A program made the position numbers and the translations under genes. Shown here piece by piece: positions 20,701 through 48,336 of a stretch of DNA of 64,000 nt. The notes under the pieces are model-generated. The model did not search any database. It worked only from the letters and a program-made list of their open reading frames with translations, and was not told the origin of the DNA. The stretch comes from Siphonodentalium dalli (taxonomy: Eukaryota > Mollusca > Scaphopoda > Gadilida > Siphonodentaliidae), in NCBI GenBank assembly GCA_032622095.1, contig CP136067.1, forward strand, positions 193,402,052 through 193,466,051. Reading direction: 5' to 3'. Every line of letters starts with the position of its first letter. Position 1 is the stretch's first letter.

Positions 20701-21385
20701 ATATAGCCTATTGAAATTGTGCCCATATGCTAGAAGCGGGTCCTCCGGAGGACCCGCTGTTAAACACACGGGGATTTCTCATACCGGTTTGGTGCCTTAT
20801 ATGGACAACTCTGCGACAGTGGGCCATACAATATATGTACATGAGAGTCATAACACTTAGAAAGAAGCATTCTTGGGCTGATCCTGGCTCCAAAAGTCGA
20901 AATGTAGTCTATTGAAATTGTGCCCATATGCTAGAAGCGGGTCCTCCGGAGGACCCGCCTTTAAACACACGGGGATTTGTTATACCCGATCTGTAGCGTT
21001 ATATCGGCAAATATGCGACAGTGGGCCATACAATATATGTACATGAGAGTCATAACACTTAGAAAGATGCATTCTTGGGTGATCCTGGCTCCAAAAGTCG
21101 AAATATAGCCTATTGAAATTGTGCCCATATGCTAGAAGCGGGTCCTCCGGAGGACCCGCTTTTAAACACACGGGGATTTGTTATACCCGATCTGTAGCGT
21201 TATATCAGCAAATATGCGACAGTGGGCCATACAATATATGTACATGAGAGTCATACCACTTAGAAAGATGCATTCTTGGGTTGATCCTGGCTCCAAAAGT
21301 CGAAATATAGCCTATTGAAATTTTGCCCATATGCTAGAAGCGGGTCCTCCGGAGAACCCGCTGTTAAACACACGGGGATTTGTTA
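14794..21385. repeat. Satellite array, left block: about 33 monomers of 201-202 bp
   Basis: Each monomer has the dyad core GGGTCCTCCGGAGGACCC (a full 22-bp perfect palindrome in most). It then has AAACACACGGGGATTT, a variable 45-base part, GCGACAGTGGGCCATACAAT, CACTTAGAAAGATGCATTC, GATCCTGGCTCCAAAAGTCG and GCCCATATGCTAGAA. Two main types differ in the variable part: type A reads CTCATACCGGTTTGGTGCC and type B reads GTTATACCCGATCTGTAGCG. Monomers at 14,794-16,300 are diverged and those further in are nearly identical. The array stops in mid-monomer at 21,385 where a large element is inserted. Recurrent 60-70 codon frames on both strands are a by-product of the repetition and not genes. Confidence 0.95.
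17485..21337. repeat. Higher-order satellite blocks (7-mer, about 1,410 bp; 4-mer, 806 bp)
   Basis: The same ordered set of marked monomers recurs with an offset of 1,410 bases (for example 17,485 to 18,895 and 18,492 to 19,902). At the end it recurs with an offset of 806 bases (19,902 to 20,708 and 20,174 to 20,980). The 806-base block is type A, type B with GCCTTTAAAC, type B with GCTTTTAAAC, and type B with the broken dyad GGAGAACCC. Copies within a block series look identical or nearly so, which indicates recent amplification by unequal exchange. Confidence 0.85.
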
Positions 21386-21413
21386 CCCATATAAAAATGT
21401 ACCTGGGTAAATC
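21386..21413 (+). repeat. Left terminal inverted repeat of the giant element
   Basis: These 28 bases begin CCCATATAAAAATGTACC and end GGGTAAATC. They are the exact reverse complement of 38,824-38,851 and are immediately preceded by the target dinucleotide TA at 21,384-21,385. Confidence 0.9.
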
Positions 21414-21414
21414 C

Positions 21415-22140
21415 ACCCAGGTTTTTTGGGCCGAAACCCAGGTAAATCTATCTACCAAGATATCCACCAACCATCAAGACCCCCTGAAACCTGGGTTTTA
21501 CCATGATTTACCCACCTGAAACTGGACAAAAAACCCTGGTATGGATAAACCTGGGTGTATTTACCCAGGTGACCACACCCAGGTGTACCCTACCTGGGTG
21601 TTTCCCACCCAGGTGTACCCTGGTGTTTCCTACCTGGGTGTTTCCCCCACCCATGTGTACCATGGTGTTATTCACCCAGGTGTTTCCCCCACACAGGTGT
21701 ACCATGGTGTTATTCACCCAGGTGTACCCTGATGTTTCCTACCTGGGTGTTTCCCACCCAGGTGTACCTTGGTGTTATTCACCCAGGTGAACCCTGATGT
21801 TTCCTACATGGGTGTTCCCCACCCAGGTGTACCTTGATGTTTCCAACCCAGATGTACCTTGGTGTTTTCTTACGCCGGTGTACCTTGGTGTTTTCTTACC
21901 CAGGTGGATTTCCCACTGAGATGCACCTGGTTAGAAAACACCAAGGTACACCCAGGTAAGGAAACACCAAGGTACACCTGGGCAGGAAAACACCAAGGTA
22001 CACCTGGGTAAGAAAACACCAAGGTACACCTGGGTAAGAAAACACCAAGGTACAACTGGGTGGGAAACACCAAGGTACACATGGGTAGGAAACACCAAGG
22101 AACACCTGGGTGAATAACACCAAGGTACACCTGGGTGGGG
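21415..22140. repeat. Left subterminal CCCAGGTGTACC array with a strand switch
   Basis: From about 21,541 to 21,915 the sequence repeats ACCCAGGTGTACC joined by TGGTGTTTCC-like linkers on the plus strand. From about 21,925 to 22,140 the same words appear reverse complemented (GGAAACACCAAGGTACACCT). The two halves can fold into a large hairpin with centre near 21,920. Irregular repeat frames in all six phases arise from this and are not proteins. Confidence 0.85.
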
Positions 22141-23655
22141 ATCCAAAGTGAAATGATGAGGATGGCAATGAAGTAGATTTGGATGGGATGCAGGGGTATT
22201 GTTATCAATATGGAGTTGTTTTAGTATAATAGAACATTAAGGAAACTGATTGTGCAGCAATACAAGTTTATTCAAGGACAACAAACTAACTAAAGATAAA
22301 ATACATGTATAGAAACACATGTAATACATAAATATATAAACTCATTAAACTGCATGGGTTAAAACTTACTGACAACAAGAGTTGGGTTAAATTTTTGATT
22401 AAAAAACACTTGCAAATTCCCTCTGCGTACATGTATATGGTATGTTAGGCAAGTTACATGTACATGTAGTTGCAATGTATACCGGTACATGACATACCGG
22501 TGGACACAAAAATCATTATTTTAGTTCCAATGTCATTTACCAGTATACATGTACATGTTTTACCTTGCAACTACATCTACAGTGAGGTAGTTTTGACTCA
22601 TTTAAACTTTCTAAATGGGTTTCTCCCTTTGAATGACATAAACTAATGTGAGTATACACATGAGCTGTGATGTGAAATACACACCAAAAAAATATTTTTT
22701 GGTCTAAGGACATGTTTCCTGTCATTATCTCACTGCTTACAAATATATATTTGTAATAGTGTGCTGTAATGCTCCAGAAATAGTCATATTTTGTCCTGGT
22801 TCATAAGAACACATTATTTCTTAGTGTTAGAAGGACATGTTGTCTATTATTATTTGACTCATAAACCCCCAAATGTACATGTAAACAGAACATTTGGGAA
22901 AGAGACACACCATCTTTATCCTTTTTTATATCAGTAGCAATTGATCAGATAGCAAAATATGCTATAAAAAATAGATGTCAGATGGTAGAGATTAAACAAT
23001 CACATTAATTGCACCAACTCGAAACAGTTAACATACCCTGTAGAATACAGACTATGATCAAGGAGGGTGTCACACACACCCCCACCCCGCTTTGGCATGT
23101 GATATTCAGGCCATTTTCAGGTGGTATGCTCTATACATACCCAATGTTATCTGGTACCAGGATTCACACAGTAATATAACCGGCATTCATGATTCAGCAA
23201 AAAGGCTAGTATGCAGATATAATACCGGTAGCAGAAAATTATACAAATTTTGAGTATTTTCCAGCCTAAACAGACCCAAGTGATATATTTTTATCTAATT
23301 CAGTCTAATACCTCTTGATATGTTGATGTTTTGGATACTATTTCAGCAAATGTAAGAAAACTGTGAACTGGTATTCAGTATTCATGGGTGATAGGAGGGG
23401 TAACACCCTCATAAAGGCCACTCACAATTGAATACACCAGTATGGAAGGTGTCACCACCCCCACCTCCCTGGTCCCAATACCAGTTAATGTAAAAGGTTG
23501 AATCATGCGTACCAGTTACAAGTAAGGAAATATTGAATGAAAACTAATATTACACTAATAATATAGTTTTCATATACATGTACTAGTATTTGCTGAAGTT
23601 GTATCCATAACTTCTACATACCTATAGATAATAGATTGAATAAAAGGACGTCCGG
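22141..23655. other. Interior of giant element, no gene recognised
   Basis: AT-rich sequence with several ACATGTA runs and short CA/CCCC tracts (about 23,070-23,090 and 23,455-23,470). No reading frame, RNA or repeat pair could be supported. Confidence 0.4.
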
Positions 23656-23659
23656 CCGC

Positions 23660-24387
23660 AGTGTCCCCCGAAAAAGTGGCTTCATTGGGGCATCAGCTTG
23701 TCTGAAAAAAATATCAAGGACCCTAAATCTGATAAAACATTTCAGAACAATCCAACCAGTGTCCCATGAAATGGTGAATAATAAACTATCATACTAAATT
23801 TGATTCAGATATGATCACACAAACTAAAATTATGATCCGGAAACCAGAAATTAACACGAGTCTAAGTCGAAAAAGGACCATAACTCTCGCAAATATGGGT
23901 AAACCCATATTCGAACTTGACCTGTTAATAGGGCTGATAAACTCACATACCAAATTTGGTTCAGATATGATCACACAAACTGAAGTTATCATCCGGAAAC
24001 CAGAAAATTAAAAAATTCTAAGTAAAAAAGGGCCATAACTCTTGCAAAAATGGGCGGAGCACACCCATATTCGAACTTGACCTGTATTTTGGTCTGATAA
24101 ACTTACATACCACATTTGTTTCAGATATGATCACACAAACTGAAGTTATCATCCGGAAACCAGAAAATTACAAAATTCTAAGTAAAAAAAGGGCCATAAC
24201 TCTCGCAAAAATGGGCAGAGCAAACCCATATTCGAACTTGATCTTTAGTTTGGTCTGATAAACACACATACCAAATTTGCTTTTGATCTCATAACCGAAA
24301 CTAAAGTTATCATCTGGAAACCATTTCCGGACAGACGGACGGACGGACACCGGCTATTTTAATAGTCCCCTGAAATTTTCGGCGGAC
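23660..24387. mobile_element. GTCCCCCGAAAA-type element, inverted relative to 8,151-8,824
   Basis: The left end GTGTCCCCCGAAAAAGTGGC is the reverse complement of the right end of the 8,151 element. Its right end, AGTCCCCTGAAATTTTCGG, is a decayed form of the other. The interior has three units of about 165 bases, each with GGGCCATAACTC, CCCATATTCGAACTTGA, CAGATATGATCACACAAAC and ATCATC(C/T)GGAAACCA. It is followed by ACGGACGGACGGACA. The element is non-coding. Confidence 0.65.
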
Positions 24388-24869
24388 AATTACATCATAA
24401 ATGTCATTTGGGCTGGAAACTAGTAAAACAAAATTAATTTTGTGCTAGAAAAGCTGCGAACCAGCCTTTTTGTTGAATCCTGAATACCGGAATACCGGTT
24501 AAACTGCGCAAATGAATCCCGACTACCAAATTAGCAGAGGGGTATGAATCATGCATGCCACCTGAAAATTGTGCATCAATGTTTTCAATTTACTTCATTT
24601 ACAAGTACATGTACCTGTACAATTTTTTTTATTTTCAAATATGTGAGATCCAAGCGGAAATCATGAGTACTGTGCATTAGTCCGAGAGTCTGATAACCTG
24701 GGTGTTTGGTTATTATAGAGTGTACATTGTCTCAAAATTTTTAATCTTCATGCCCAGTTTATAGCGAGAGTCATGTTAGGTCTAATTATCTCCCCCAAAG
24801 CATCAGTACATGTATGCGTAAACTATAAATTGCATAAATATTGCATTAATTTGTGTATATTTTCATGGG

Positions 24870-25650
24870 TAATATATGTTATGTCTCGGGTAATTTATTT
24901 TGTATGAGGGTAATACTATTACCATACATGTACATGTATATAACTGACTAAATTAATGTGTTGTAAAACACAATCGATTCTTTCAAACCTATGTACCATC
25001 AATTGAACCTTGGACCATTTGAACCCTCAAACTATTGAACTTCATGACACTCGAACCCATCGAACTACATGTACTAGTAATGAACACTCTGACTAATGCA
25101 CTGTACATGATTGAGTTAATGGTTATGTGACCTCAGGAATTGGTCCAAGTAATTTTTCTGCTTTACTAGTAAATGTCCTTTAACCCTTTACCCAACAAAC
25201 CGGCCAAAACCGGCCAAATAAAGCTTCAACAGCCTAAAATATCTTCTCAATATAACCATACAAATATGGATATCATTGGAACCGGCTCCTTGACCACATT
25301 GTGATAGTTACAGTTATGCCCTGTGCCAATGCATTCTCTTATATATGCGAGTCGACCATAGGTCGCCTCGCATATATAAGAGAATGCATTGGCTTAAAAA
25401 AATCTTTTTTTAACACTTTTTACCATTTTTTCTTACATTCTTTAACAATTTTATAATTTTTAATGTGTTAAGCCAATGCATTCTCTTATATATGCGAGGC
25501 GACCTATGGTCGACTCGCATATATAAGAGAATGCATTGGCACAGGGCCGTTCTGTTGGGTAAAGGGTTAATTGTTCCAATTGTATCGACACTGATTTTTT
25601 GTTTTCATCCAAATTGCAACGAAGAACTACTAGTATACACATGTACCGTC
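24870..25650. repeat. Direct duplication, copy 1 (copy 2 at 26,660-27,040)
   Basis: Shared in order are TATGTTATGTCTC, TGAACCCTCAAACTATTGAACTTC as two overlapping words, ATCG(A/G)ACTAC, ACTAGTAATGA, AATGGTTATGTGACC, TTTCTGCTTTA and GTTTTCATCCAAA. Copy 1 contains a 391-bp MITE that copy 2 lacks, so the pair also serves as a filled and an empty insertion site. Confidence 0.7.
25180..25570. mobile_element. piggyBac-like TTAA MITE, 391 bp, built of two mirrored hairpins
   Basis: TTAA at 25,180-25,183 and 25,567-25,570 flank the terminal inverted repeats CCCTTTACCCAACA and (T)GTTGGGTAAAGGG. TTAA targets with CCC-starting ends are the hallmark of the piggyBac superfamily. The body has two 69-base hairpins (25,326-25,394 and 25,472-25,540), each running from GCCAATGCATTCTCTTATAT to its complement. 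The second is the exact reverse complement of the first, and a T/A-rich spacer separates them. The empty site is visible near 26,940-26,965. Confidence 0.85.
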
Positions 25651-25784
25651 CAATGAGGCCGCAATAATAATAGTCTCCCAAGTTGTAATCTTCATGACCA
25701 GTTTATAGTGACAGTTACATGTACAATTAGGTAACATACATGTAGTAGACACCCAATTATACACAAAATATCTTCCCCAAAGCT

Positions 25785-26645
25785 ATGGGAGGCCAAATTC
25801 ACATTTAATAATGAATTTCGCTTAAGCGCAATTGATTGCGCTTAAGCGCAAATAATTGCGCTTAAGCACATTCAATTGCACTTAAGCGCAAATACCACAT
25901 ATTGTGCTTAAGCGCAAATACCACATATTGTGCTTAAGCGCAAATAGGGCATTTACGCTTAAGCGTAATTAATTGCGCTTAAGCGTAATTGTGACTACTA
26001 TCTAACCTACCCATAAACTATTAGCATGACCTGGATAACTTTTCAGGATTTAGTCGGAAATATGGCTTGTTGCCATTCATCGGAAAGCTCTCGAGAGCTT
26101 TTCGATGAATGGCAACAAGCCATATTTCTGACTAAATCCTGAAAAGTTACCCATAATTCTGCTGTGGTTAAGAAGTCGATTAAATAGAGCATTACCGTAT
26201 GAGGTAAGAAAGCTCTCATGCAGTGACACCACATGCATGTATAGGATAAAGGCTAAAAGGATATAAGGCTAAAATCTGTGCAAAAATACATTAAAAATAT
26301 CATACAAAACATTACTAGAGTTCCGGGAAGGCCACATCATTTCTTTGGATAGAGGGATGCTGATAATATGTAATTAGGGGATTCTCCTTGTTGAACACAT
26401 ACTCACAGTTTGACTGTTGAGTACAGGTCAAAATTAGCCCAATGCGCATCTTGTGTTGCTAGGTGATACACCAGGTCATGCTAATAGTTTATGGGTAGGT
26501 TGATTAATTGCGCTTAAGCGTAAATGCCCTTATTGCGCTTAAGCACAATATGTGGTATTTGCGCTTAAGCGCAATTGATTGCACTTAAGCGCAATCAATT
26601 GCGCTTAAGCGCAATTCATTATTAAATGTGAATTTGGCCTCCCAT
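25785..26645. repeat. 861-bp palindromic unit with TTAAGCGCAA repeats in the arms
   Basis: The outer ends ATGGGAGGCCAAATTCACAT and its reverse complement lie at 25,785 and 26,645. The arms carry a series of GCGCTTAAGCGCAA words, each itself palindromic, and ATATTGTGCTTAAGC variants. The inner arm ends ACCCATAAACTATTAGCATG (about 26,009-26,028) and its complement (about 26,478-26,497) close the structure. The centre holds a nested hairpin and part of a TA-type MITE. No reading frame is present. Confidence 0.8.
26036..26200. mobile_element. Partial TA-type MITE with a perfect central hairpin
   Basis: Bases 26,036-26,149 form a hairpin centred on AGCTCTCGAGAGCT, with arms from TAACTTTTCAGG through GCCATATTT. 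Downstream, AATTCTGCTGTGGTTAAG and GAGCATTACCGTA match the right end of the complete element at 29,336-29,497. The left terminal part is missing here, replaced by the inner edge of the larger palindrome. Confidence 0.7.
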
Positions 26646-27689
26646 ATCATTGTGTACATGTATATCGACAATACATGTTATGTCTCAAGTAAATAACTTT
26701 GTACTACGGTACAGTAATTGATACTCTCAACGCGGTTACCATTGCACATTTGGACTATTGAACCCTCAAACTATTGAACTTCTTGACAATCGAACCCATC
26801 GGACTACTAGTAATGACCACTCGGTCTAACGCACTGTCATTGAATCATCATAAATATGATTGAGGTACATGTAATAATGTACATAATTGCGGTAATGGTT
26901 ATGTGACCCTATGAATTGCTCCAAGCTATATTTCTGCTTTAAATTTCAATCAAATTGTCCCTATTGTATGGACTTATCGAGTTTTGGTTTTCATCCAAAA
27001 AGCCAAATTGCACTGAGAAACTATACACATGTAAATGTATTAAGAGACCTCCATTTGCAATGAGTTAGGCAGTGATGCAGTGTGCAACTGCACCAATTCT
27101 ATAAACTTAACCCACATAGTGACATACTAGTATCATGGTCTATCCCCAAATAGAACATATGGTACATGTACATGGTAAGTACTGTAAAGAATGATCTGGC
27201 TGAAAGGCGGTCATGAGAAAAATTAATGCGGTTTACCGTGGTTGAAACACTGCAGTAATTCACTTGGTTACAACAAAAATATTACTGCAGTAAGATTTAA
27301 TACCAGCAGATACTGCATTAGTATTGAAATGGCTTGGGTTTTTCATAGTTGACTAATCGACAGTAAAAAAATCAAGTCGAAGTAGACTAATCGACAACAC
27401 AAATTTCCATGGAAAACTTCCAATTTACTATGTGGTTATTGAGTTAAAATCAATGAGAGATAACTGCAGTTCCAATTTTTTGTGGGACTGTAATGATTCA
27501 TAGCGAATTCATGCATTGTATTGGGATACACTATCAATGATACGCATATCATGATATAATGTGTATTGCGATACAGGAAATCAAATAATTTTTTAAGATG
27601 GGAATGTGTAAATTTAGAGCAAAACCTGCAATTTTCAAAGTTTAAATGTCTATTATGCGTGTAAATTCTTTGGGTTCATGAAATGGAAA

Positions 27690-27745
27690 AAAAGTTGTAG
27701 GAGGTGTTCGTAAACCGGACTTAAAAATTGGTGTCGCCTTATGTG
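27690..27745. mobile_element. Solo end of the GGCGACACC MITE family
   Basis: TGTAGGAGGTGTTCGTAAAC followed by CGGACTTAAAAATTGGTGTCGCC matches, as reverse complement, the left end of the element at 30,933-31,301. No partner end was seen nearby, so this is a fragment. Confidence 0.6.
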
Positions 27746-27770
27746 TATTTAGCTCATATAGTTAACTATT

Positions 27771-28040
27771 AAAGGTGCTCAATCAGATTCGATGGTCCCC
27801 ATATAATCAGATTCCAACAACATTTTTTTTAGAAATGCTGCTTCAGTTATCAGAATCGATCAATTGCCCAAAAATAATGCTAACCACTGTCAACTGCATG
27901 TATAATATAAAATTGCCCGATACATTATATTTATCAACATGCTGTTCGATGAAGTTTGGCCTTATTATCAACACAAAGCCTCTTGATTTTAGAGTTATCC
28001 ATCTTCATCTGCAATTTGGTCTGAGACCGTCGGCTCGTCA
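27771..28040. mobile_element. Fragment of the TTAAAGGTACTCAATC MITE family
   Basis: It starts ATTAAAGGTGCTCAATC and shares with 61,627-61,920 the blocks TTATCAGAATCGAT, AAATAATGCTAACCA, GTCAACT, a GGCC(T/G)TATTATCA block and TTTTAGAGTTATC. The 3' end of the element is not recognisable here. Confidence 0.6.
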
Positions 28041-28738
28041 AATTTTTCTGGGCCACTATTAAGTCTCGATGAACTGTATCCAGTATAAACATGTTAAACC
28101 TGATAATAATTAGAGCATGCAGTCACTGTTGACATGCGGTATCCGCTAGTAATCTTACCACAGTAATATGACTGATAACCAAGTTAATTGTTTTACCACA
28201 AAAATTCTGAATTCTATCTAGACATTTTGAAACAATAAAACAAAATTCTGGTGTGGTTACAATGTCAACTTAAAAAAAAAATTCATTTAAACATCGCATG
28301 AAAAATACAACCTAACTGCAAATGTGAGGTGGACCACATTCTGCAGCCGTATAACTGACTGCGGTTGATCACATGAACACGCCTGAATACTGCAGTAATA
28401 CCCGATGGTCAACCTTTATAAGGCGAGTTGATTAATTAAAGCATAGCTGTAATTTTACATGTATGTTCTATGGACTTTGTTGGGAAAGAGAATATAGCTG
28501 TGCGAAAATGGATGATATTTCCCCACCTCAGCAGGTGTCGATTACAGAAAAATATACCAAACATACCAGTAGTCTGTTAATCCTGATGTGCTAAGTTAGA
28601 AATTTTTCAATCGAAACCTCATAAAAAAAAATATAAATTCAGTTCTCAATTTTCAAACACTTCTAGGAAATTGTTAAAAAATATTGTTAAAAGATGCCCA
28701 TTCGATTTGACACTGTAAATATACCCCTGTTCAAGTGT
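28041..28738. other. No gene or repeat recognised
   Basis: AT-rich non-coding sequence in the giant element. The word CTGCAGTAAT and its variants recur here and at about 27,250-27,320, but no period could be defined. Confidence 0.35.
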
Positions 28739-28850
28739 TCCTGCTAATGTGCTATGATATGCGGTTGGGTCCTGCTGAATTGCTATGAATTGCGCTACCA
28801 GCATCATAGCAATTCAGCAGGACCACCAGCATCATAGCATATTAGCAGGA
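28739..28850. repeat. Composite hairpin with CAGCATCATAGCA words
   Basis: The left arm has TCCTGCTAAT, GTGCTATGAT and GTCCTGCTGAATTGCTATGA. The right arm has TCATAGCAATTCAGCAGGAC and ATCATAGCATATTAGCAGGA. The central loop is about 15 bases. The left arm has a slight bulge (ATGCGGTTGG against ACCAGC). It is a foldback unit with no coding content. Confidence 0.7.
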
Positions 28851-29335
28851 CCACTTGGCCAGTGGTAAAATAGTTTGTTTTCCATACGGATATGTGTTTT
28901 CAAATAATCATGTAATGATATCTAACATACATGTATATGATCCCATTTATAGGTTTCATTCATCACGGTCAGATAAATTTTGTATACAGACAGTTTTACC
29001 AAACTTAGAATTTTTATTAGGTGCCCAAACCAAAATATCAAAACATCACCTAACTCAGTGGTATTATAAAGAAGCTCAAACTGTATGCTTTCATTGTAGC
29101 TGTAATTACTAGTATTAAAAATGTGCTCAATAAAGTTTGTTTTATCATTTATGGTCATTTGGAATTTGGATGCTATTTAATTCTGTTTATCTATATAATT
29201 GGCTGCACTGCTAAATTTTGACTCATTTCAGTCATTGATGTCAGTACATGTAGTCCATCGAAATGGCGAACACAATCAAAGACAAATTACAAGAGGAAAT
29301 ACAACAAATCAATTTGATGTGCACTAAAACAGATA

Positions 29336-29497
29336 CAGTAATGTCCTAAGTAATCGACCCCTTAACCACAGCAGAATTATGTGTAACTTTTCAGGATTTA
29401 GTCGGAAATATGGCTTGTTGTCATTCATCGGAAAGCTCTCCCCGAGTTACCCATAATTCTGCTGTGGTTAAGGAGTCGATTAATTAGAGCATTACTG
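29336..29497. mobile_element. Complete TA-type MITE, 162 bp
   Basis: It starts CAGTAATG and ends CATTACTG, with TA at 29,334-29,335 and 29,498-29,499. The inverted repeats extend inward through TAATCGAC, CTTAACCACAGCAGAATTAT and GTAACT, about 50 bases with few mismatches. The interior matches the hairpin at 26,036. TA duplication with such ends fits a Tc1/mariner-like non-autonomous element. Confidence 0.8.
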
Positions 29498-29499
29498 TA

Positions 29500-30240
29500 G
29501 TTACAAATGTATGTCTAGCCTCTTGTGAAGTGTTGTGTCACTAATAAGATCTTTAATTCACATACATGTACTATATACCCGTTCAAGCGTTTACAAGTGT
29601 CAGACATCGAGAAACCGACCAAAAGTTTTGGTAGTATATAGGCTAGCACTGCACCTGGGCTACATGTACATGTACTGTAGGTGATTATAATGTACTATTT
29701 TTTTATTCTGCTGTGAAAGTTTTGCTGAATGAAATTTAAGTTTACCCCGATATTCTAAGTCTGCTCGACTAAGATGGGGTTTTTCTCGAAAACTGATAGA
29801 TATCTGAATATACATGTACGTCTTCCACTGGTTGGTATAACCTCTAAATTGACCAATTTTAATTGATTAAACTAACCCTGGTATGGAAAACTCTAATTTT
29901 TATAGCCCGATGAGCGGTTTACTGATGCCCGCCGGGGTTTATTGCCCACAGTGGTGATGATATGATGACCAGCGTTGTGCATGGCATATGTTTATCCAGG
30001 TACTAGTAAGAATGCTACCATACATTCCAAACATTCATTAAATATCTTATTAATAGTAACCCAAACTACACAAGAGACTAGTTTAACATAAATATAGCTA
30101 TGTTCTAATTAAATGACCCCACCCCACAACAAGATTGACCACCGGTATTTGACTGTTCAACCACATTCAATTACAATGCCGCTGGAATGCCTCATAGTAT
30201 TTACGGTATTTTGATTAATCGACAACATCGCTGTTGCAAA
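29500..30240. other. No gene recognised
   Basis: Non-coding AT-rich interior of the giant element with scattered ACATGTACATGT runs. No repeat pair or frame is supportable. Confidence 0.35.
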
Positions 30241-30245
30241 CATTA

Positions 30246-30656
30246 CTCTTGAGTGCCTAATAAAAGTACAGGGTGGAATAATAGACTACATGTAGTACAG
30301 GTTGGAAAATGTCGCGTAACTGAATAATAGTACAGGGCGGAATAAACGTACAGACTGGAACTATTAGTACCATACATCCCAACAAAACGCACCATCTGAC
30401 TGCCAGTGACTGGTTTATATACTGATGCCATGTGACAGAAATAGTTTTGATTGATAGCCAGGTCTGTGAATCTACAGTGTGCTGATCACTGTCAACAATC
30501 AGAGTTCATTTATCTATGAATAACACAATTTAAGATTGGTGAATTATTTCTTTTGGTTAATTTAATAAACGTACAGGACCAAATAACGATCGTACAGGTG
30601 GAAATTTTACCTCGATTTTAATAATCATACATGTATGTTTATTAGGCACTCAAGAG
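30246..30656. mobile_element. TA-type MITE, 411 bp, with internal GTACAGG words
   Basis: It starts CTCTTGAGTGCCTAATAAA and ends with its reverse complement. TA is present on both sides (30,244-30,245 and 30,657-30,658). Inside, GTACAGGGTGGAATAA and its variants occur at both ends and the middle (GTACAGGTTGGAA, GTACAGGGCGGAATAA, GTACAGGTGGAAA). It is non-coding. Confidence 0.8.
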
Positions 30657-30932
30657 TACATATTCAAGTATGTGGCATACCAAAACACAACATGATACAT
30701 ACATGTACATGTACTACATACCATCTATAATAATTATTTGGTTTTTTAAAACCACAGTTGATGTTTTGCTCAGAGCATGACCACGTTGCATGTAACTTGG
30801 ATCAACACTGGAACAGTATTGATGGTAATTTTCAACATGGTCTCACTGAGGTTCTATCAGATATAAATACTAGTACGGTTGAGGGAGACAATTATTTTGA
30901 GAATATGTGAACCTGTGTTAACATGAGCCTAA

Positions 30933-31301
30933 GGCGACACCAATTTTTAAGTCTGGTTTACGAACACCTCCTACAACTTTTTGTCCATTTCATGAAAAAA
31001 AATAAAACTGTTTTCTCCCAAAATATTTTACATGCGTACTGATTTTCATGTGTTGTCGCATCCGGTTCTGCTTATGATCATTTACGTATCCATATTTTCA
31101 TGTATTTCATGACAAGATATGTCTTGTTTGGTTCAGAATTTTATTCAAAAACATTTTTTCACAATTTATGTGAAATTCCACGATTTACTTGATATAAATT
31201 GGGGGGACAATCTTTTTTTTTCTTTTCCCTCCTGCACTGTCCTGCATCTACTTTTTTTATCCCCACATTATAGTAAACCAGACTTAAAAATTGGTGTCGC
31301 C
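30933..31301. mobile_element. PIF/Harbinger-like MITE, 369 bp, TAA target duplication
   Basis: The terminal inverted repeats are GGCGACACCAATTTTTAAGT continuing to CTGGTTTA, with the complement at the right end. The trinucleotide TAA is repeated directly outside (30,930-30,932 and 31,302-31,304). Three-base TNA/TAA duplications with GG-starting ends are typical of PIF/Harbinger. The interior is T-rich and non-coding. A solo end of the family lies at 27,690-27,745. Confidence 0.75.
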
Positions 31302-32377
31302 TAAATATCATCTGATGGAGTCAAAATCATTGAACCGTCACTTATGCATGCACATGTAGTCTTGAACTCTTGATGTTGAGTCTGGGTTTCATCATTTTCA
31401 TTAGTTTGCTGTAGCCTGTTATCCACCAAAGGTTGAGGTGTTATGGAACAACTGTATGGCATCGTATACTGTTATCTTTTGAGTAAATATGGAGTCTCTA
31501 ATTCTTTTATCAGTCACGCATCTACTCATCAAATTGACATTAGTATAATCCTTAAATATTTGTAAATTGTAACAATTGTCACCATGAACTTGTTGATAAT
31601 TTTCTTTGTCGTGTAACAACTGTTGTACCAAGTTTCAATGCTGCGTCCTCCTGGTATGTAGGGATTACTGGTGCCTTTAATAGTGATGCATCATTGCCAG
31701 TTAATGTACATTAGAGTGGAACTGAATTAACAATGTCACATTGACACAGTAAGACCAGTAAAACAGCAAAAGTAGTATTATTGTAACAGCAGGCTTAACA
31801 CTATCAGTACCGTATGAGTCTATGGCCACATGTACATGTACAGTAGTACAGACCCCTCACTATCGCAGATCAAACTTCTCAATTTTCTTCTGGACAGGTG
31901 CATGATCAGGCCACTGCCACTGCATCATGCTTGTACCGGTACCACAAATTCAATTTTGCGTATTGTCGTAGCGTGACAATTACAAATAATTACAATGTAC
32001 TGTACATGTATTACTTTTCAATTCAATCCCAATGCACTATGTCCACTGTCAGTGGTTTTCATGTGATACAAATATTCCAGGTCATACAGATGTGTCAGCG
32101 GGAATATTCTGGTTATGGGCAGATGGCCGTTCAATACTATAGTTGATCCGTTTCGTTATCGTAGCTTAATTCTTACTGTTCCGGGAATTGAAATATTTTT
32201 TGTCACATGAAATTCAGTCTTTTTCGATATTTGCGCACATCCATGCAGACAAAATCGGCGAATCTTATTTATAAGTCCACAGTTTATCCGTTTGTAGCGA
32301 ATACACCATTTCCTTCTGTCATTCCGCGTTGATTCGCGACAAAATTAACTCAAAACACCACAAGGAATTATCGGCGC
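31302..32377. other. No gene recognised
   Basis: Non-coding interior of the giant element. A 71-codon minus-strand frame at 31,419-31,631 has moderately protein-like composition, but it has no splice signals I would trust and no recognisable motif. Confidence 0.35.
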
Positions 32378-34326
32378 TTCTTTTCGAGCTATATGCGTAA
32401 AACCGACATCATTCGCTGGCCAAATTGTAACCTATATTTAGATCATGTATGACGTCAGGAAATTCCCAGCTCAAGGTGATCTCTTAAAGTTTTTGGCGCA
32501 CCGTGAGTAAACTGATTTCATATGTGTTGAGGAATTATTTCGTTTAATCTATTGTATACAAAAGATAAAAACTGTTTTATTTCATAGCAAAGCTCAGTTC
32601 TATTTAACTATCCACTAAATAGTATAAAACATATATGTTTCATTCATGAAAATAATGTATTTTGGGAATTTTGACGAAAAATTTATCATTTTTAAATTAA
32701 AAGTTTGCTTGTAAGGCCATAATAAATATATTGCTAGATGATCATCGGCGCCCCCCCCCCCCCACCCCCGATTTTTTTGGCCTGCCTCGGATGTATTTAT
32801 TATACCATTTACGAAAGTGAAACACATTTAAAAAAAAATAAAAATGCATGTAATGTTTAATGCATGTAATATGTAATGCACCTATATCGCTAAATATATA
32901 CTATATACTATGTTTACATTAAGCAGCAATAATTTTAGATGGAATTTTTAAAAACAATTTACTTCTATCAAAATACATGTATGTCCATTTGTGGTTGCAG
33001 ATGAATCCCAATCTCACCAATAAATATGCAGTCTTTAAAACATGCTTGTGGTAATCTTGTTTGTTCAACTCCCATCTCTTGTGGGAAGAAGTCTTATCTG
33101 TTAGAGAGCAATATACATGTAGTAGACTTCCTATATCAGAATTTAAAGTTCCTCTCCCCAGTCAATCAAGGATTCATAGTGTCCATGCGTAGTTACTAGT
33201 ATGGACACAGACAGTATAAATAGGACTGCATGTCTACCATATCAAACACCCTTCTGGGATGGGCACTATTTAAAAACATTATATGGAATTATTTACTGGT
33301 TTGTATGGGTGTATACAACTTACAAGCATGCAATGCCAGTGTGCATAAGGAACTTCAAAGTTGGGGGCAATTTGAATCAGCGCTGAGGTTTGGTACCTCA
33401 GTCCTCAGTCAAGGTGTGGCCTGTGGTACCGGTACCATTTTCAATGTGGTGAGGGTCCTTATATTTCAATGCAATCGAGGGACATTTACACCCTGTGCAA
33501 TGTGACTGAGGCGCATGTGAGATATCCTGCCAGTGGAGGTGTGTCTTAGGTCCTGAGGTGTATGACCAAATATATAAGTGAGGTTTTAATTAATATCATA
33601 CAAGTTATGTTATTATAAAGTCATAGAAAAGCCCTATTATGGTGTTCATCTTGTGCCTGTTGATATGTCAATATTGTGCTCTGAGGAAGATGTGCCACCA
33701 CAATCTAAACTGAGAGAATAATTACAAGAGAACTGCATAGTTGAGTGCTTGGGAGGCATTTGTTTGTCCACATTGACAATACTTATCATATTGTTGTGCT
33801 ACATTAACTGTTTTCTTACAATATACATGGACAGCATTAACACAAGTATAAAGAGTAAGCATTAATGCAATTCTTAACTGTTCGGGGAAAAAATAAAAAA
33901 ATTACCCAAACAAAAAAAATCCCTACCTACCTACCTGGATTTTTTGGCATAGTACATGTAATACGAAACAAATATTTTATTTTTTTCGGCCTAATCGTGC
34001 TTGTTCCGTACCGCAAGCATTTGCTCATTTCTCGGGATCCCAAACGCCACATAGAAATAGGGCATGCGAATATGCTTGACATGGGCATCTTTTGGCATAT
34101 AGTTTGCACCACAACATATGTGTGTGTGATATTAATATATACATATGTGTTTTATTATAAATGAAGTAAATTATTGTTAGGTATTATATATTTATTTCCA
34201 TCTTTCACTTCATTTAACTCACATTTTATTAATATTGCACATGTATACAACATAGCAATGAATTGAATCAACTTTACTTGGTTCATCTATGCCGAGCTGG
34301 AAATAAATAATAAATAATAAATACCT

Positions 34327-34377
34327 CCCCCCCCCCCCCCCCCCCCCCCCGCCCCCCCCCCCCCCCGCCCCAATTTT
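34327..34377. repeat. Long poly-C tract interrupted by G
   Basis: About 50 bases are almost entirely C with two lone G residues. Shorter C runs lie at about 32,751-32,766 and 35,136-35,150. On the minus strand these are G runs able to form G-quadruplexes, and they are likely sites of sequencing or assembly length error. Confidence 0.85.
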
Positions 34378-34790
34378 CAAAAAACTTCCGATGATCATCT
34401 AGGAATATATTTATTATGGCCTAATGTAAGTAGCATACGAGGCTACGGGCATACGGCTACATGTATATACGAAGTTGTAATTTGTGAATAGCATCATTTA
34501 ATGTTGACTTGATCAGACATGACTGGGATTTTTACCGTAGGCATTTGAATATACTAGGAATATTCAACATTTTTATTCATGAAATTAAAGTTTCCAAGTT
34601 CAAGTTCAAATGATTTTATTGTCATTGTCAATGCCATGAGAAAATATATTATCTGTTTCGAATTCCGACCGATCATAAAAAATAAGGATGATCATTGATC
34701 AGAATATTTAAATTACACCCTCCCAAAATGAATTGACATAGTGATTGTAAATAATATAAGCTGCTATCATATATTGATATCACTGATCTA

Positions 34791-34973
34791 TTATATATCA
34801 GAAGTGTCAAAACTTGACAAGTGATGATATAGCACCTTCACAGATGCTCTGGTTTTTGGCACATATATACATGAGTACTCGTTCAAGGACAATGTATGAA
34901 TATTCTCTGGATTGAAAGAGACATTCTGGCTACCACCATCTTTCTTCAAATTCTTGGCAACGGAATCAGCCAT
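34791..34973 (-). CDS. Candidate first coding exon, unidentified protein
   Basis: On the minus strand a 3' splice-site-like TTTCATGTTTTAG precedes GAACAAAATGG, a good start context with A at -3 and G at +4. The frame opens MADSVAKNLKKDGGSQNVSF, continues NPENIHTLSLNEYSCIYVPK and ends at a TAA after 60 codons. A possible donor (AAG followed by GTGCTA) would end the exon after about 46 codons. The mix of charged and polar residues looks more protein-like than neighbouring frames, but I recognise no domain. It lies inside the 3.8-kb inverted-arm unit within the giant element and could be captured cargo or chance. Confidence 0.28.
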   Translation of the reverse strand: MADSVAKNLKKDGGSQNVSFNPENIHTLSLNEYSCIYVPKTRASVKVLYHHLSSFDTSDI

Positions 34974-36564
34974 TTTGTTCCTAAAACATGAAAGTAAAGA
35001 AATTTAACATCTTATTCTGATCATTGTTTTGTGTCGACCCAAAAATATTACCATTATATATATATTAATACATTTATCGATTTCATTTCAGTGAAGAATG
35101 AGATCAACAACACCTAGTGAGGCTATCCCGTGATCCCCCCCCCCCCCCCAAGACATTTTGCTTTTGTACACCAATGTTTCCACATAACATCTGGGCTAAT
35201 AATAAACAATCTTTATTGATCGTATAATTTATTAGTCCCCCTTTACTGTAAGTCATCTGAAGTCAAAGGTGCCTATCACATGACAATCCCCTGGTCAGGT
35301 ATAACCCATCTGTAATAATGTTCATACATATCGTCTAATCTCAGGCTGATAAGAAATGCTCTCTATTGCTCATATTTTCCCTGAGGTCAACGGCATTTAT
35401 CCCATGACATTCTAGTACGGGACCAATTTATCCCCATGTTTCAATTTTTACCGACCAGATTGCAACCATTTTGCATATTTGAATATATGACTCATTATGA
35501 GATGATGGGGATTTATAAATTGTGATATTAATGTATAGTATTATTATATTTATATTTAGAAACTTACTTTCAACCATATCAGATGGTAGATTTTCAAATG
35601 AATGGGAATTACTTTTACAAATTTGAATTGCCCTCAATTATTTTCGATATTTTAAATTAGTTATCTAAGTACTTGTACTTCGGGTATCTCTCTTCAACAC
35701 CAGTGGATAATTCAATGAAATCACATTTTAACTAACATTATAATATAATTTATAAATCCTAAATATCATTGTACTATACAATTCAAAACTTAAAAACAAA
35801 ATTAGATTGATATGTATTTTATATGTTGATTTTCTGACTGTATATTTTCATTTATGTGTTGAATAAACTATTGAATCTGAATCTAATTTAAATTTAAAAA
35901 TAAACGTGATAATTTTTTCTGTCAAAATTCCCCAAAATACATTGTTTTCATGAATGAAACATATATTTTTTATACTATTCAGTGGAGAGTTAAATAGAGG
36001 TATCCTTTGCTATAAAATTTACTTTATACTTTGGATATTAAATAGATTGAACGGGATAATTCCCCATTCATCTGAAAACAAATTACTCACGGCGCGTCAA
36101 AAACTTGAAAAGATCACCTTGAGCCGGGAATTTCCTGACGTCATTACATAATCTAAATATAGGATAAAATTTGGCCAGCGAATGATGTCGGTTTTACGCA
36201 TATAGCTCTTTTCGAAGTAACGATAACTAAAAGTTAAGATTGTAATTTGGCTGCAGAAACGAAACGAAACGAATTTTGAAACACAATAATTGTATTCACT
36301 AATATTTTCCTGTTGATATATGGTCTACTATAGTATACGCAATCATTTATTTGAAATAATAAGTATCACTTAGAGAATAATTCTTACTGATAATTAGAAA
36401 TATCTTTATTTTGTATCCCTTTAATATTAAATACCGGTAATGGCCCTGAAAATTGTCTGTTTGTCAGCTTAATGTTCACTAGTTATAGCTAGGCTGTTAG
36501 ATAAAGTGTGATATTGCTTCATTTGTCAGGGGTAGTGTATTGTCATACTGTCATAATAAACTTC

Positions 36565-38482
36565 AAGTAATATGGTAACTACTCGCCAATGATGCTTGAA
36601 TACAGAAATGGTTAATAAGGTAACTACCTGTCAATGACCGACGTCTTAATATAGAAAGGGCTAATAAGGTAACTAACTACACGGCAATGATACTTAGTAT
36701 AGAAAGGTTAATAATTTAACTTCTTGTCAATGATGCTTCAATATAGAAAGGGTTAATAAGGTAACTACATGTCAATAATGCTTTAATAAAGAAATGGTTA
36801 ATAAGATAAAGTTCTACACGTCAATGATGCTTTAATACAGAAAGAGCTAATAGGGTAACTACACGACAATGATGTTTTAATATAGAAAGGGTTAATATGG
36901 TAATTACACGCCAATGGTGCTTTAATATAGAAAGGGTTACTATGGTAACTACCGTCAATGATGCTTTAATATAGAACTGGCTAATATGATAACTACATGT
37001 CAATGATACTTTAATATAGAAAGGGTTAACATGGTAACTACACGTAAATGATGTCTCAATATAGAAAGGGTTAATAAGGTAACTACACGTCAATAATTTT
37101 TTAATACAGAAATGGTTAAGGGTAACTTCATGTCAATGATGCTTTATTGTAGAAAGGGTTAATAATGTAACTAATCTCCAATGACACTTATTATATAAAG
37201 GGTTAATAAGGTAACTAGGGCCTTCCTGTCAATTATTGCTTAAATATAGAAAGGGTTAATAAGGTAATTACACGCCAATGATGATTCAATACAAAAATGG
37301 TTAATAATGTAACTACCCATCAATGGTGCTTTTATATAGAAAGGGTTAATAAGGTAACTACACGTCAATGATACTTAGTATAGAAAGGGTTAATAAGGTA
37401 ACTACACGACACTGATACTTAGGTATATACATGGTTAATAAGGAAACTACCCGTCAATGATACTTTAATATAGAAAGGGTTAATAAGGTAACTACACGTC
37501 AATAATTCTTTAATACAGAAATGGTTAATAAGGTAACTTCATGTCAATGATGCTTTATTGTAGAAAGGGTTAATAATGTAACTAATCACCAATGACACTT
37601 ATTATAGAAAGGGTTAATAAGGTAACTAGGGCCTACCTGTCAATTATTGCTTCAATATAGAAAGGGTTAATAAGGTAATTACTCGCCAATGGTACTTTAA
37701 TATAGAAAGGGTTAATATGGTAACTATCCGCCAATGATGCTTTAATATAGAAAGGGTTATAATATGGTACTGCACGTCAACGATGCTTTGATACAAAAAT
37801 GGTTAATAAGGTAATTACCCGTCAATGGCGCTTTAGTATAGAAATGGTTAATAATGTAACTACTCACCTATGATACTTGGTATAGAACGGGTTGTTTAAG
37901 GTAACTACCTGTCAATTAATGCTTTAATATAGAAGGGTTAATAAGGTAACTACATGCCAATGATACTTAGTATAGAAAGGGTTAATAAGGTAACTGCCTG
38001 TCAATTAATGCTTTAATATAGAAAGGGTTAATAAGGTAACTACACGTCAATGTATATGAAGGGTTAATAAGGTAACTACACGACAATGGTACTTTAGTAT
38101 ATACAGGGTTAATAAGGCAACTATCCATCAATGGTGCTTTAATATTGAAAGGGTTAACATGGTAACCACACGTCAATGATGCTATAATATAGAAAGGGTT
38201 AACATGGTAACTACACATCAATTATGTTTTAATATAGAAAGGGTTAATAAGGTAACTACACGTCAATGATGCTTTAATACAGAAAGGGTTAATAAGGTAA
38301 CTTCACGTCAATGATGCTTTAATATAGAATGGGCTAATACTGTAACTACTCACCAATGTTACTTACTATAGAAAGGGTTAATAAGGTAACTACCTGTCAA
38401 TTAATGCTTTAATATAGAATGGTTAATAATGGTTAACTACACGCCAATGATGCTGTAATATAGAACGGGTTAATACGGTAAC
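36565..38482. repeat. Minisatellite, about 46-bp unit, roughly 40 copies
   Basis: The unit reads approximately GAAAGGGTTAATAAGGTAAC, TACACGTCAATGATGC and TTTAATATA in order. Copies differ by point changes and small indels and some include longer insertions (AGGGCCT before a TGTCAATTATTGC variant). A longer block near 37,095-37,240 recurs near 37,500-37,650, a hint of higher-order duplication. The minus-strand frame with CSYHVNPFYIK-like repeats is a consequence of the period and not a gene. Confidence 0.9.
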
Positions 38483-38851
38483 TTCAAGTGCAGATTATAC
38501 AGTTTAACAAAATACCACAGGTGTATATATCCGGGTGAACACTGTAGTAAATACATGGGCGAAAACCTGGTGTAAATACCTGGGTGTAAATACTCCGGAT
38601 AACCTGGGTTTAAATACCACCCGGGTGTGACAGCGTTTTTCTAAATTATATCCGTAAAAACCCGGGTAAACTGGGGTTTAACCTAACATAAATAGAAAAC
38701 ACCAGGGTAAATCTTTATAAAGCCCTGATTTACCTGGGTGTAACCTGGGTGTGACCTGGGTGGAACCAGGGTAAAACCTACATTTACCGGGGTTCATCAG
38801 GGGTATACCTAGGTAAACACCAAGATTTACCCAGGTACATTTTTATATGGG
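38483..38851. repeat. Right subterminal ACCTGGGT-rich zone of the giant element
   Basis: The words CCTGGGTGTAAATA, ACCTGGGTTTAAATAC, CCGGGTGTGA and ACCTGGGTGTGACC repeat irregularly up to the right terminal inverted repeat. This mirrors the left subterminal zone without being an extended inverted match to it, as in transposons that carry arrays of transposase-binding sites near both ends. Confidence 0.75.
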
Positions 38852-41800
38852 TATACCCGATCTGTAGCGTTATATCGGCAAATATGCGACAGTGGGCCAT
38901 ACAATATATGTACATGAGAGTCATAACACTTAGAAAGATGCATTCTTGGGTGATCCTGGCTCCAAAAGTCGAAATGTAGCCTATTGAAATTGTGCCCATA
39001 TGCTAGAAGCGGGTCCTCCGGAGGACCCGCTTTTAAACACATGGGGATTTGTTATACCCGATCTGTAGCGTTATATCAGCAAATATGCGACAGTGGGCCA
39101 TACAATATATGTACATGAGAGTCATACCACTTAGAAAGATGCATTCTTGGGTTGATCCTGGCTCCAAAAGTCGAAATATAGCCTATTGAAATTTTGCCCA
39201 TATGCTAGAAGCGGGTCCTCCGGAGAACCCGCTGTTAAACACACGGGGATTTGTTATACCCGATCTGTAGCGTTATATCGGCAAATATGCGACAGTGGGC
39301 CATACAATATATATACATGAGAGTCATAACACTTAGAAAGATGCATTCTTGGGTTGATCCTGGCTCCAAAAGTCGAAATATAGCCTATTGAAATTGTGCC
39401 CATATGCTAGAAGCGGGTCCTCCGGAGGACCCGCTGTTAAACACACGGGGATTTCTCATACCGGTTTGGTGCCTTATATGGACAACTCTGCGACAGTGGG
39501 CCATACAATATATGTACATGAGAGTCATAACACTTAGAAAGAAGCATTCTTGGGTTGATCCTGGCTCCAAAAGTCGAAATGTAGCCTATTGAAATTGTGC
39601 CCATATGCTAGAAGCGGGTCCTCCGGAGGACCCGCTTTTAAACACACGGGGATGTGTTATACCCGATCTGTAGCGTTATATCAGCAAATATGCGACAGTG
39701 GGCCATACAATATATGTACATGAGAGTCATAACACTTAGAAAGAAGCATTCTTGGGTTGATCCTGGCTCCAAAAGTCGAAATATAGCCTATTGAAATTGT
39801 GCCCATATGCTAGAAGCGGGTCCTCCGGAGGACCCGCTGTTAAACAAACGGGGATTTCTCATACCGGTTTGGTGCCTTATATGGACAACTCTGCGACAGT
39901 GGGCCATACAATATATGTACATGAGAGTCATAACACTTAGAAAGAAGCATTCTTGGGTTGATCCTGGCTCCAAAAGTCGAAATATAGCCTATTGAAATTG
40001 TGCCCATATGCTAGAAGCGGGTCCTCCGGAGGACCCGCTGTTAAACAAACGGGGATTTGTTATACCCGATCTGTAGCGTTATATCGGCAAATATGCGACA
40101 GTGGGCCATACAATATATGTACATGAGAGTCATAACACTTAGAAAGAAGCATTATTGGGTTGATCCTGGCTCCAAAAGTCGAAATATAGCCTATTGAAAT
40201 TGTGCCCATATGCTAGAAGCGGGTCCTCCGGAGGACCCGCTGTTAAACACACGGGGATTTCTCATACCGGTTTGGTGCCTTATATGGACAACTCTGCGAC
40301 AGTGGGCCATACAATATATGTACATGAGAGTCATAACACTTAGAAAGATGCATTCTTGGGTTGATCCTGGCTCCAAAAGTCGAAATGTAGCCTATTGAAA
40401 TTGTGCCCATATGCTAGAAGCGGGTCCTCCGGAGGACCCGCTTTTAAACACACGGGGATTTGTTATACCCGATCTGTAGCGTTATATCAGCAAATATGCG
40501 ACAGTGGGCCATACAATATATGTACATGAGAGTCATACCACTTAGAAAGATGCATTCTTGGGTTGATCCTGGCTCCAAAAGTCGAAATATAGCCTATTGA
40601 AATTTTGCCCATATGCTAGAAGCGGGTCCTCCGGAGAACCCGCTGTTAAACACACGGGGATTTGTTATACCCGATCTGTAGCGTTATATCGGCAAATATG
40701 CGACAGTGGGCCATACAATATATATACATGAGAGTCATAACACTTAGAAAGATGCATTCTTGGGTTGATCCTGGCTCCAAAAGTCGAAATATAGCCTATT
40801 GAAATTGTGCCCATATGCTAGAAGCGGGTCCTCCGGAGGACCCGCTGTTAAACACACGGGGATTTCTCATACCGGTTTGGTGCCTTATATGGACAACTCT
40901 GCGACAGTGGGCCATACAATATATGTACATGAGAGTCATAACACTTAGAAAGAAGCATTCTTGGGCTGATCCTGGCTCCAAAAGTCGAAATGTAGTCTAT
41001 TGAAATTGTGCCCATATGCTAGAAGCGGGTCCTCCGGAGGACCCGCCTTTAAACACACGGGGATTTGTTATACCCGATCTGTAGCGTTATATCGGCAAAT
41101 ATGCGACAGTGGGCCATACAATATATGTACATGAGAGTCATAACACTTAGAAAGATGCATTCTTGGGTGATCCTGGCTCCAAAAGTCGAAATATAGCCTA
41201 TTGAAATTGTGCCCATATGCTAGAAGCGGGTCCTCCGGAGGACCCGCTTTTAAACACACGGGGATTTGTTATACCCGATCTGTAGCGTTATATCAGCAAA
41301 TATGCGACAGTGGGCCATACAATATATGTACATGAGAGTCATACCACTTAGAAAGATGCATTCTTGGGTTGATCCTGGCTCCAAAAGTCGAAATATAGCC
41401 TATTGAAATTTTGCCCATATGCTAGAAGCGGGTCCTCCGGAGAACCCGCTGTTAAACACACGGGGATTTGTTATACCCGATCTGTAGCGTTATATCGGCA
41501 AATATGCGACAGTGGGCCATACAATATATGTACATGAGAGTCATAACACTTAGAAAGATGCATTCTTGGGTGATCCTGGCTCCAAAAGTCGAAATGTAGC
41601 CTATTGAAATTGTGCCCATATGCTAGAAGCGGGTCCTCCGGAGGACCCGCTTTTAAACACACGGGGATTTGTTATACCCGATCTGTAGCGTTATATCAGC
41701 AAATATGCGACAGTGGGCCATACAATATATGTACATGAGAGTCATACCACTTAGAAAGATGCATTCTTGGGTTGATCCTGGCTCCAAAAGTCGAAATATA

Positions 41801-47800: not shown

Positions 47801-48336
47801 CTTAGAAAGATGCATTCTTGGGTTGATCCTGGCTCCAAAAGTCGAAATATAGCCTATTGAAATTTTGCCCATATGCTAGAAGCGGGTCCTCCGGAGAACC
47901 CGCTGTTAAACACACGGGGATTTCTCATACCGGTTTGGTGCCTTATATGGACAACTCTGCGACAGTGGGCCATACAATATATGTACATGAGAGTCATAAC
48001 ACTTAGAAAGATACATTCTTGGGTTGATCCTGGCTCCAAAAGTCGAAATATAATCTATTGAAATTTTGCCCATATGCTAGAAGCGGGTCCTCTGGACGAC
48101 CCCAACGGGACAAAGGGCCCTAAGGTAAATGTAAACTGGGACAACATAACTTAGATAGAAGCATATTTGAGTTGATCATGGATACACAAGTTGAGATATA
48201 CCCAATTTAAATTGTTCGGATATGTAAACCACAGGTGTCCTCTGGAGGACCCGCTAATAAATATATCGGAATTTCAGATACCCCTTATGTTGACTTATAT
48301 CGACAGTGGGGCCTAAAATATATGTGTATGCCAGTT
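38852..48336. repeat. Satellite array, right block: about 47 monomers of 201-202 bp
   Basis: It resumes at TATACCCGATCTGTAGCG, the exact continuation of the monomer cut at 21,385. Monomer types and variants are the same as in the left block (types A and B, the broken dyad, a one-base deletion giving GGGTGATCC, and the rarer AAACAAACGGGG and CATTATTGGG). From about 46,650 monomers become more varied, and those after 48,080 are strongly diverged and end near 48,336. It is non-coding. Confidence 0.95.
39000..45700. repeat. Higher-order satellite blocks (13-mer, about 2,620 bp; 6-mer, 1,210 bp)
   Basis: Marked monomers at 39,385, 39,788 and 40,191 recur at 42,005, 42,408 and 42,811, an offset of 2,620. 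The rare variant GCATTATTGGG, at about 40,149 and 42,769, confirms it. Further on, 43,217-44,283 recurs at 44,427-45,493, an offset of 1,210, with shared private variants (TGGGAGTCATATCAC, TTAGCAAGAAGC, CCTCCGGAAGAACCC). The 4-monomer type A/B block of the left array is also found at about 40,822-41,430. Confidence 0.85.

Follow-up and report, generated by a model that had tools for sequence, protein, structure and literature searches.

A giant element of Siphonodentalium dalli, probably a non-autonomous DNA transposon of the TRC (animal CACTA) type

Structure of the element and its insertion site

The window, i.e., the whole 64,000-nucleotide stretch of DNA that was analysed, contains a complete element of 17,466 bp on the forward strand (21386..38851), delimited by perfect inverted ends and a 2-bp duplication and compared here with 11 other complete copies. 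As originally predicted, its two 28-bp terminal inverted repeats, read from the sequence, start with CCC at position 21386 (left repeat, forward strand, 21386..21413) and end with GGG at position 38851 (right repeat, reverse strand, 38824..38851), with an unstranded copy of the dinucleotide TA on either side (21384..21385 and 38852..38853). The host sequence is a tandem satellite array with a 202-bp unit, of which the left and right parts, both on the forward strand, occupy positions 15360..21385 and 38852..48102.

When the element and one TA were taken out, the 202-bp array was restored. The satellite was found to resume in register, which had also been predicted: the joined flanks were identical to unbroken satellite at about 17,811-18,108 (298 of 298 bases alike), the sole difference being the extra TA. 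After removal of one TA, the joined flanks could be aligned over 4 kb to the right-hand array at 98.4%, with 60 mismatches and 5 gap openings. Since the joined flanks reproduce the array in both comparisons, we conclude that it was split by a single insertion.

The arrays of the motif ACCTGGG/CCCAGGT announced for both termini were borne out, with 29 of the 31 sites in the window copy lying within the first 800 or the last 400 bp of the element; in each of eight other copies counted, only 2 sites were found outside these terminal regions. The left subterminal array (21400..22140, unstranded; 23 sites in the first 800 bp) carries the motif in both orientations and consists partly of tandem units of about 26 bp, and the right cluster (38540..38851, unstranded) has 6 sites in the last 400 bp. 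The inverted end itself includes ACCTGGGT. Near the right end lies a 45-bp minisatellite of 42 tandem units (36568..38483, forward strand), which comprised 36 to 86 units in the 11 other copies measured, from both of the subfamilies described below.

Moreover, 3.8 kb of the element's 17.5 kb correspond to a second, nested insertion that had been overlooked in the original prediction. It is 3,819 bp long (32388..36206, unstranded), foreign to the family, bounded by inverted ends of about 320 bp that are 84% alike, and flanked by a probable 9-bp duplication, TCTTTTCGA. Without it and one 9-bp repeat, the element measures 13,638 bp. The insertion was missing from eight other copies (c2, c3, c4, c5, c7, c8, c9, and c10), as well as from two copies of the second subfamily (d1 and d2). 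No Pfam match was obtained within it (window 32388-36206); from its layout, we take it to be Mutator-like.

Mutually related tandem units of about 150-160 bp were observed both inside and outside the element (window 23781-24323 and 49853-50233, respectively), with weaker matches near 12.5 and 55.1 kb of the window. The motif GGGCCATAACTC is present in the repeats at 23781-24323 and 49853-50233, and is, to our eye, reminiscent of bivalve genomes.

Copy number, length and subfamilies

We searched the window's own genome (2.23 Gb, nine contigs) for the 28-bp inverted end, allowing at most 3 mismatches. This search returned 576 and 569 occurrences in the two orientations (1,145 ends), compared with 0 for the control, and therefore indicates roughly 570 elements. 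A 515-bp query from the left end gave 777 candidates, and all 40 of those scored matched nearly the whole query at 97-100%. Further copies were present on all nine contigs, which excludes chance or misassembly as the origin of the element.

Among the perfect ends listed, 97 were located on contig C1, and 74 of these formed 37 inward-facing pairs (at most 40 kb apart). Among the matches listed, these pairs spanned 8.7 to 20.3 kb, with a median of 14.5 kb, and 36 of the 37 fell between 13.3 and 20.3 kb. For the 23 ends left unpaired, the partner may carry mismatches or the copy may be truncated. Copies in which both ends are perfect are probably the most recent, which skews the length distribution on C1 towards young ones. 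Compared with copy c2, the 8.7-kb copy (L029) lacks about 6.8 kb of the interior. Ten copies were fetched, eight of them with both ends and two (c9 and c11) in which 20 kb of sequence contained no right end; c11 ceases to match the family after 2.5 kb. Multiplying about 570 elements by the C1 median of 14.5 kb, we estimate that the family adds roughly 8 Mb to the genome. The original prediction had anticipated other copies at TA sites, of variable length and ideally including one with a transposase. Hundreds of copies of variable length were indeed found; their sites are not only TA, and no transposase was recognised in the two copies scanned or beside the ends listed.

There are at least two subfamilies, each made up of nearly identical units with lengths from about 14 kb upwards. 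Over 1.25 kb of the left arm, the copies sampled from the window's subfamily diverged by 0.2-1.3%. Copies d1 and d2 (14.2 kb each, 1.0% apart) represent the second subfamily, which differs from the window's by 2.8-3.4% in the left arm. Copies d1 and c2 could be aligned to each other over about 69% of their length, and the 45-bp minisatellite is carried by both subfamilies.

Assignment to a transposon superfamily

The family has precise ends, varied but exact 2-bp duplications and hundreds of ends, with no coding capacity recognised in the two copies scanned. We assign it, with a probability of about 0.7, to the giant non-autonomous DNA transposons of the TRC (animal CACTA) type; the transposase that moves it would then be of TRC/CACTA identity. 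The prediction of a giant non-autonomous transposon with nested cargo was supported, with several hundred copies, no gene recognised and a 3.8-kb nested insertion. No family could be named for it in that prediction; the end features fit the animal TRC branch of CACTA, although no transposase was found as proof.

All 12 complete copies begin with CCCATATAAA and end with its complement, all 12 carry a 2-bp duplication without fixed sequence, and the direct and inverted motif repeats are subterminal (29 of the 31 sites). In the excerpts of the literature available to us, animal TRC elements are described as having CCC ends and a 2-bp repeat, the latter present in only 7 of 14 copies of SmTRC1 (DeMarco 2006, PMC1636069); Spongebob of Hydra was assigned to TRC from its CCC ends and 2-bp duplication (PMC4298943); and subterminal direct and inverted repeats are reported for CACTA elements (PMC8978399). 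A Transposase_21 gene was not found inside the element, in the frames read through in the window copy and in d1. Non-autonomous members lack this gene by definition, and our claim is therefore limited to TRC-type ends.

The CCC start and the 2-bp duplication are short and weak characters for TRC membership, and the alternative with the most weight, though distinctly less probable than the TRC assignment, is a non-autonomous element of another or undescribed superfamily whose transposase likewise duplicates 2 bp of any sequence. The search around the listed ends revealed no linked transposase, and the match to TRC ends amounts to three bases and the length of the duplication. On the other hand, the other 2-bp groups we compared differ from the family: ISL2EU is described as duplicating AT, and PHISTA and ESTA as duplicating TA, while the ends given for PlavakaA (TGT..ACA) and PlavakaB (CATCA..TGATG) are not those seen here; in addition, the subterminal repeats fit CACTA. 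Membership in ISL2EU (PHIS) was rejected separately, the duplications not being confined to AT.

Among known systems, as far as the cited excerpts describe them, the TRC elements (SmTRC1 of Schistosoma and the Tribolium and Aedes elements) share the CCC start and the 2-bp duplication, and the 27-bp inverted end of the Tribolium element is close to the 28 bp found here. However, the Tribolium and Aedes elements, of about 5.2 and 9.2 kb, were found via their transposase gene, whereas copies here are mostly 14-20 kb and none was found in those scanned (PMC1636069). Spongebob_HMa/EnSpm-4N1_HM of Hydra has CCC ends, a 2-bp duplication and, as here, hundreds of copies (441); its authors report that they did not find the exact transposase owing to stops and frameshifts, and it differs in its 5.8-kb consensus and its end sequence (PMC4298943). 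The enlarged En/Spm elements of the red alga Chondrus are of similar size (16-20 kb) and share the proposed superfamily, but have 4-5 open reading frames, compared with none recognised here (PMC6431247). Wheat high-copy CACTA elements are described as combining short tandem repeats with high-copy amplification, as in this family (PMC4290129). The likeness is one of description, and plant CACTA elements differ from the family in their ends and in their 3-bp duplication.

A search for a related family with only the first 15 bp of the end gave 8 matches, versus 16 for the reversed control, and in the whole genome just 3 ends continued with a base other than the two known subterminal ones. No match was obtained in two pattern scans of viral contigs. 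In the largely open-access literature listings searched, we recognised no giant non-autonomous animal CACTA element as this family.

Coding capacity and Transposase_21 genes

To describe coding capacity, one copy per subfamily (the window copy and d1) was read through in six frames at a Pfam threshold of E 0.1, and no match was obtained. The reading covered window positions 22200-36560 on both strands, the last 350 bp on the plus strand, and most of d1, outside the terminal arrays and, in the window copy, outside the minisatellite. The same read-through recovered Transposase_21 and DUF4218 in a positive control locus (L035). The earlier observation that no transposase was visible stood in the frames of the window copy that were read. 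Mismatches between the subfamilies were distributed over the three phases as 97/105/109 in a plain count in which some aligned rows overlap, and as 80/82/87 without two overlapping rows; 14 of the 69 indels were multiples of three. The longest open frame of c2 has 140 aa, fewer than the 148 aa that mark the 95% level in random sequence. Among the open frames of at least 125 aa listed for the ten fetched copies, the maximum within the elements, terminal arrays excepted, was 151 aa (c9). By eye, a frame of 127 aa in d1 and 124 aa in d2 seems to us to resemble the tail of a LINE reverse transcriptase; it gave no Pfam match in d1. Hidden coding capacity was rejected, the Pfam read-through of two copies, the phase and indel counts and the open-frame comparison all being without sign of it.

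An autonomous element, with its transposase gene divided into small exons or lying outside any Pfam family, is improbable. Pfam is blind to unknown families, the copies are long enough for a gene, and only two were scanned with it. Against this stand the absence of any match over the greater part of the window copy and of a copy from the second subfamily, with a positive control locus, the phase counts, the indel lengths and a longest frame in c2 below the random level.

Transposase_21 was matched 78 times in the genome, 27 times within an open frame of at least 900 aa, and a source acting in trans therefore exists in principle. None was found adjoining the ends of the family: on contigs C1 and C2, all 17 matches were more than 80 kb from any listed exact end (both lists hold ends without mismatches, that of C2 almost only exact left ends), and on C3 to C9, 0 of the 61 matches were within 50 kb of the 198 exact ends in a partial list.

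Two lineages were considered as partners and rejected. The most repeated lineage, with a 909-aa frame, has twelve matches in the genome. The sequences fetched for two of its loci on contig C1 (L035 and L036) were 99.7% identical over their full 9.5 kb and reached no boundary; this could reflect either an autonomous element of large size or the duplication of a still longer segment. No ACCTGGG/CCCAGGT site was present in L035, and the lineage showed short matches to the family interior (25-139 bp, 75-96%), which we read as dispersed repeats rather than shared ends. The 903-aa lineage (L034) had one ACCTGGG/CCCAGGT site, a best match of 19/28 to the 28-bp end and no convincing inverted ends in 10 kb; its DNA matched the family only within the window's nested insertion.

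Twelve Transposase_21 matches, with one TAG each, were clustered in about 5 Mb of contig C7 (G000:C7:18.8-24.0 Mb), which suggests a regional duplication.

Target site duplications

An exact 2-bp duplication was found in each of the 12 complete copies (the window copy, eight fetched copies, two second-subfamily copies and the 8.7-kb deletion copy; c9 and c11 were not scored), and in none did it reach a third base. Eight different dinucleotides were represented. In the whole genome, we counted 472 exact left ends in which, as in the window copy, the next base is C. Two G/C bases preceded 39 of them (CC, CG, GC and GG were all seen) and G/C then A/T preceded 119. The share of TA, the sole dinucleotide tallied individually, was 16.7% as a raw share, possibly reflecting a mild TA preference.

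The TA duplication of the window copy, on which the original prediction had based a comparison with Tc1/mariner, was one case among many, and the comparison fails on the duplication of any 2 bp. Although the window copy is flanked by TA and 79 of the 472 left ends follow it, a Tc1/mariner-type element is exceedingly unlikely: 393 left ends are preceded by a different dinucleotide, whose first base is C or G in 158 cases, and in 10 of the 12 complete copies the duplicated dinucleotide is not TA. Misassembly is a known risk in satellite flanks, but an artefact joining unrelated satellite blocks is just as improbable, the same unit with the same ends occurring at unrelated sites on all nine contigs.

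Mobilisation and length of the element

If the family is of the TRC type, a transposase encoded elsewhere would bind the ACCTGGG/CCCAGGT motif where it occurs in the inverted ends and in the arrays next to them, the terminal clustering of the motif being the layout expected of a transposase that binds repeated sites at both ends, as described for CACTA elements (PMC8978399). It would then excise the 14-20 kb unit by cut-and-paste, mobilised in trans, and the unit would be inserted where a cut with a 2-bp stagger is made, with almost no constraint on the target sequence.

The expectation for non-autonomous DNA transposons is that they shorten, and a 14-kb non-coding unit present at hundreds of copies without shrinking is unusual. 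Among the 37 C1 pairs, only one was shorter than 13 kb (8.7 kb), and no miniature version was seen apart from one 5.9-kb palindromic derivative on C7. According to the available parts of two reports, transposition efficiency falls with the distance between the ends (PMC6431247), and, in a curated bivalve library, Sola1 and Academ are generally the longest DNA transposons, with means near 5.5 kb, and small non-autonomous copies are mentioned (PMC10294476). The length, the arrays and the minisatellite are kept in subfamilies that share only about 69% of their length, and we therefore propose, tentatively and as a rather unlikely reading, that the 14-kb length itself is kept and that internal non-coding sequence may serve movement or survival. 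If true, such a need would run against the rule of shrinkage in non-autonomous DNA transposons. With several hundred copies of 14-20 kb and no recognised gene, the size question can be tested in one genome.

Some ends were also found in unusual arrangements. At G000:C7:2398566-2404518 (L037), a pair of left-type ends is oriented inward at a distance of 5.9 kb, each with TA on its outer side; the central 2 kb consist of the second subfamily's left arm fused to its own inverse, giving the palindromic derivative. At G000:C4:147166531-147166596, two copies are arranged with their left ends back to back and some 8 bp between them, and further closely neighbouring ends were observed on C3 (93.37 Mb), C6 (18.77 Mb) and C1 (244.44-244.47 Mb).
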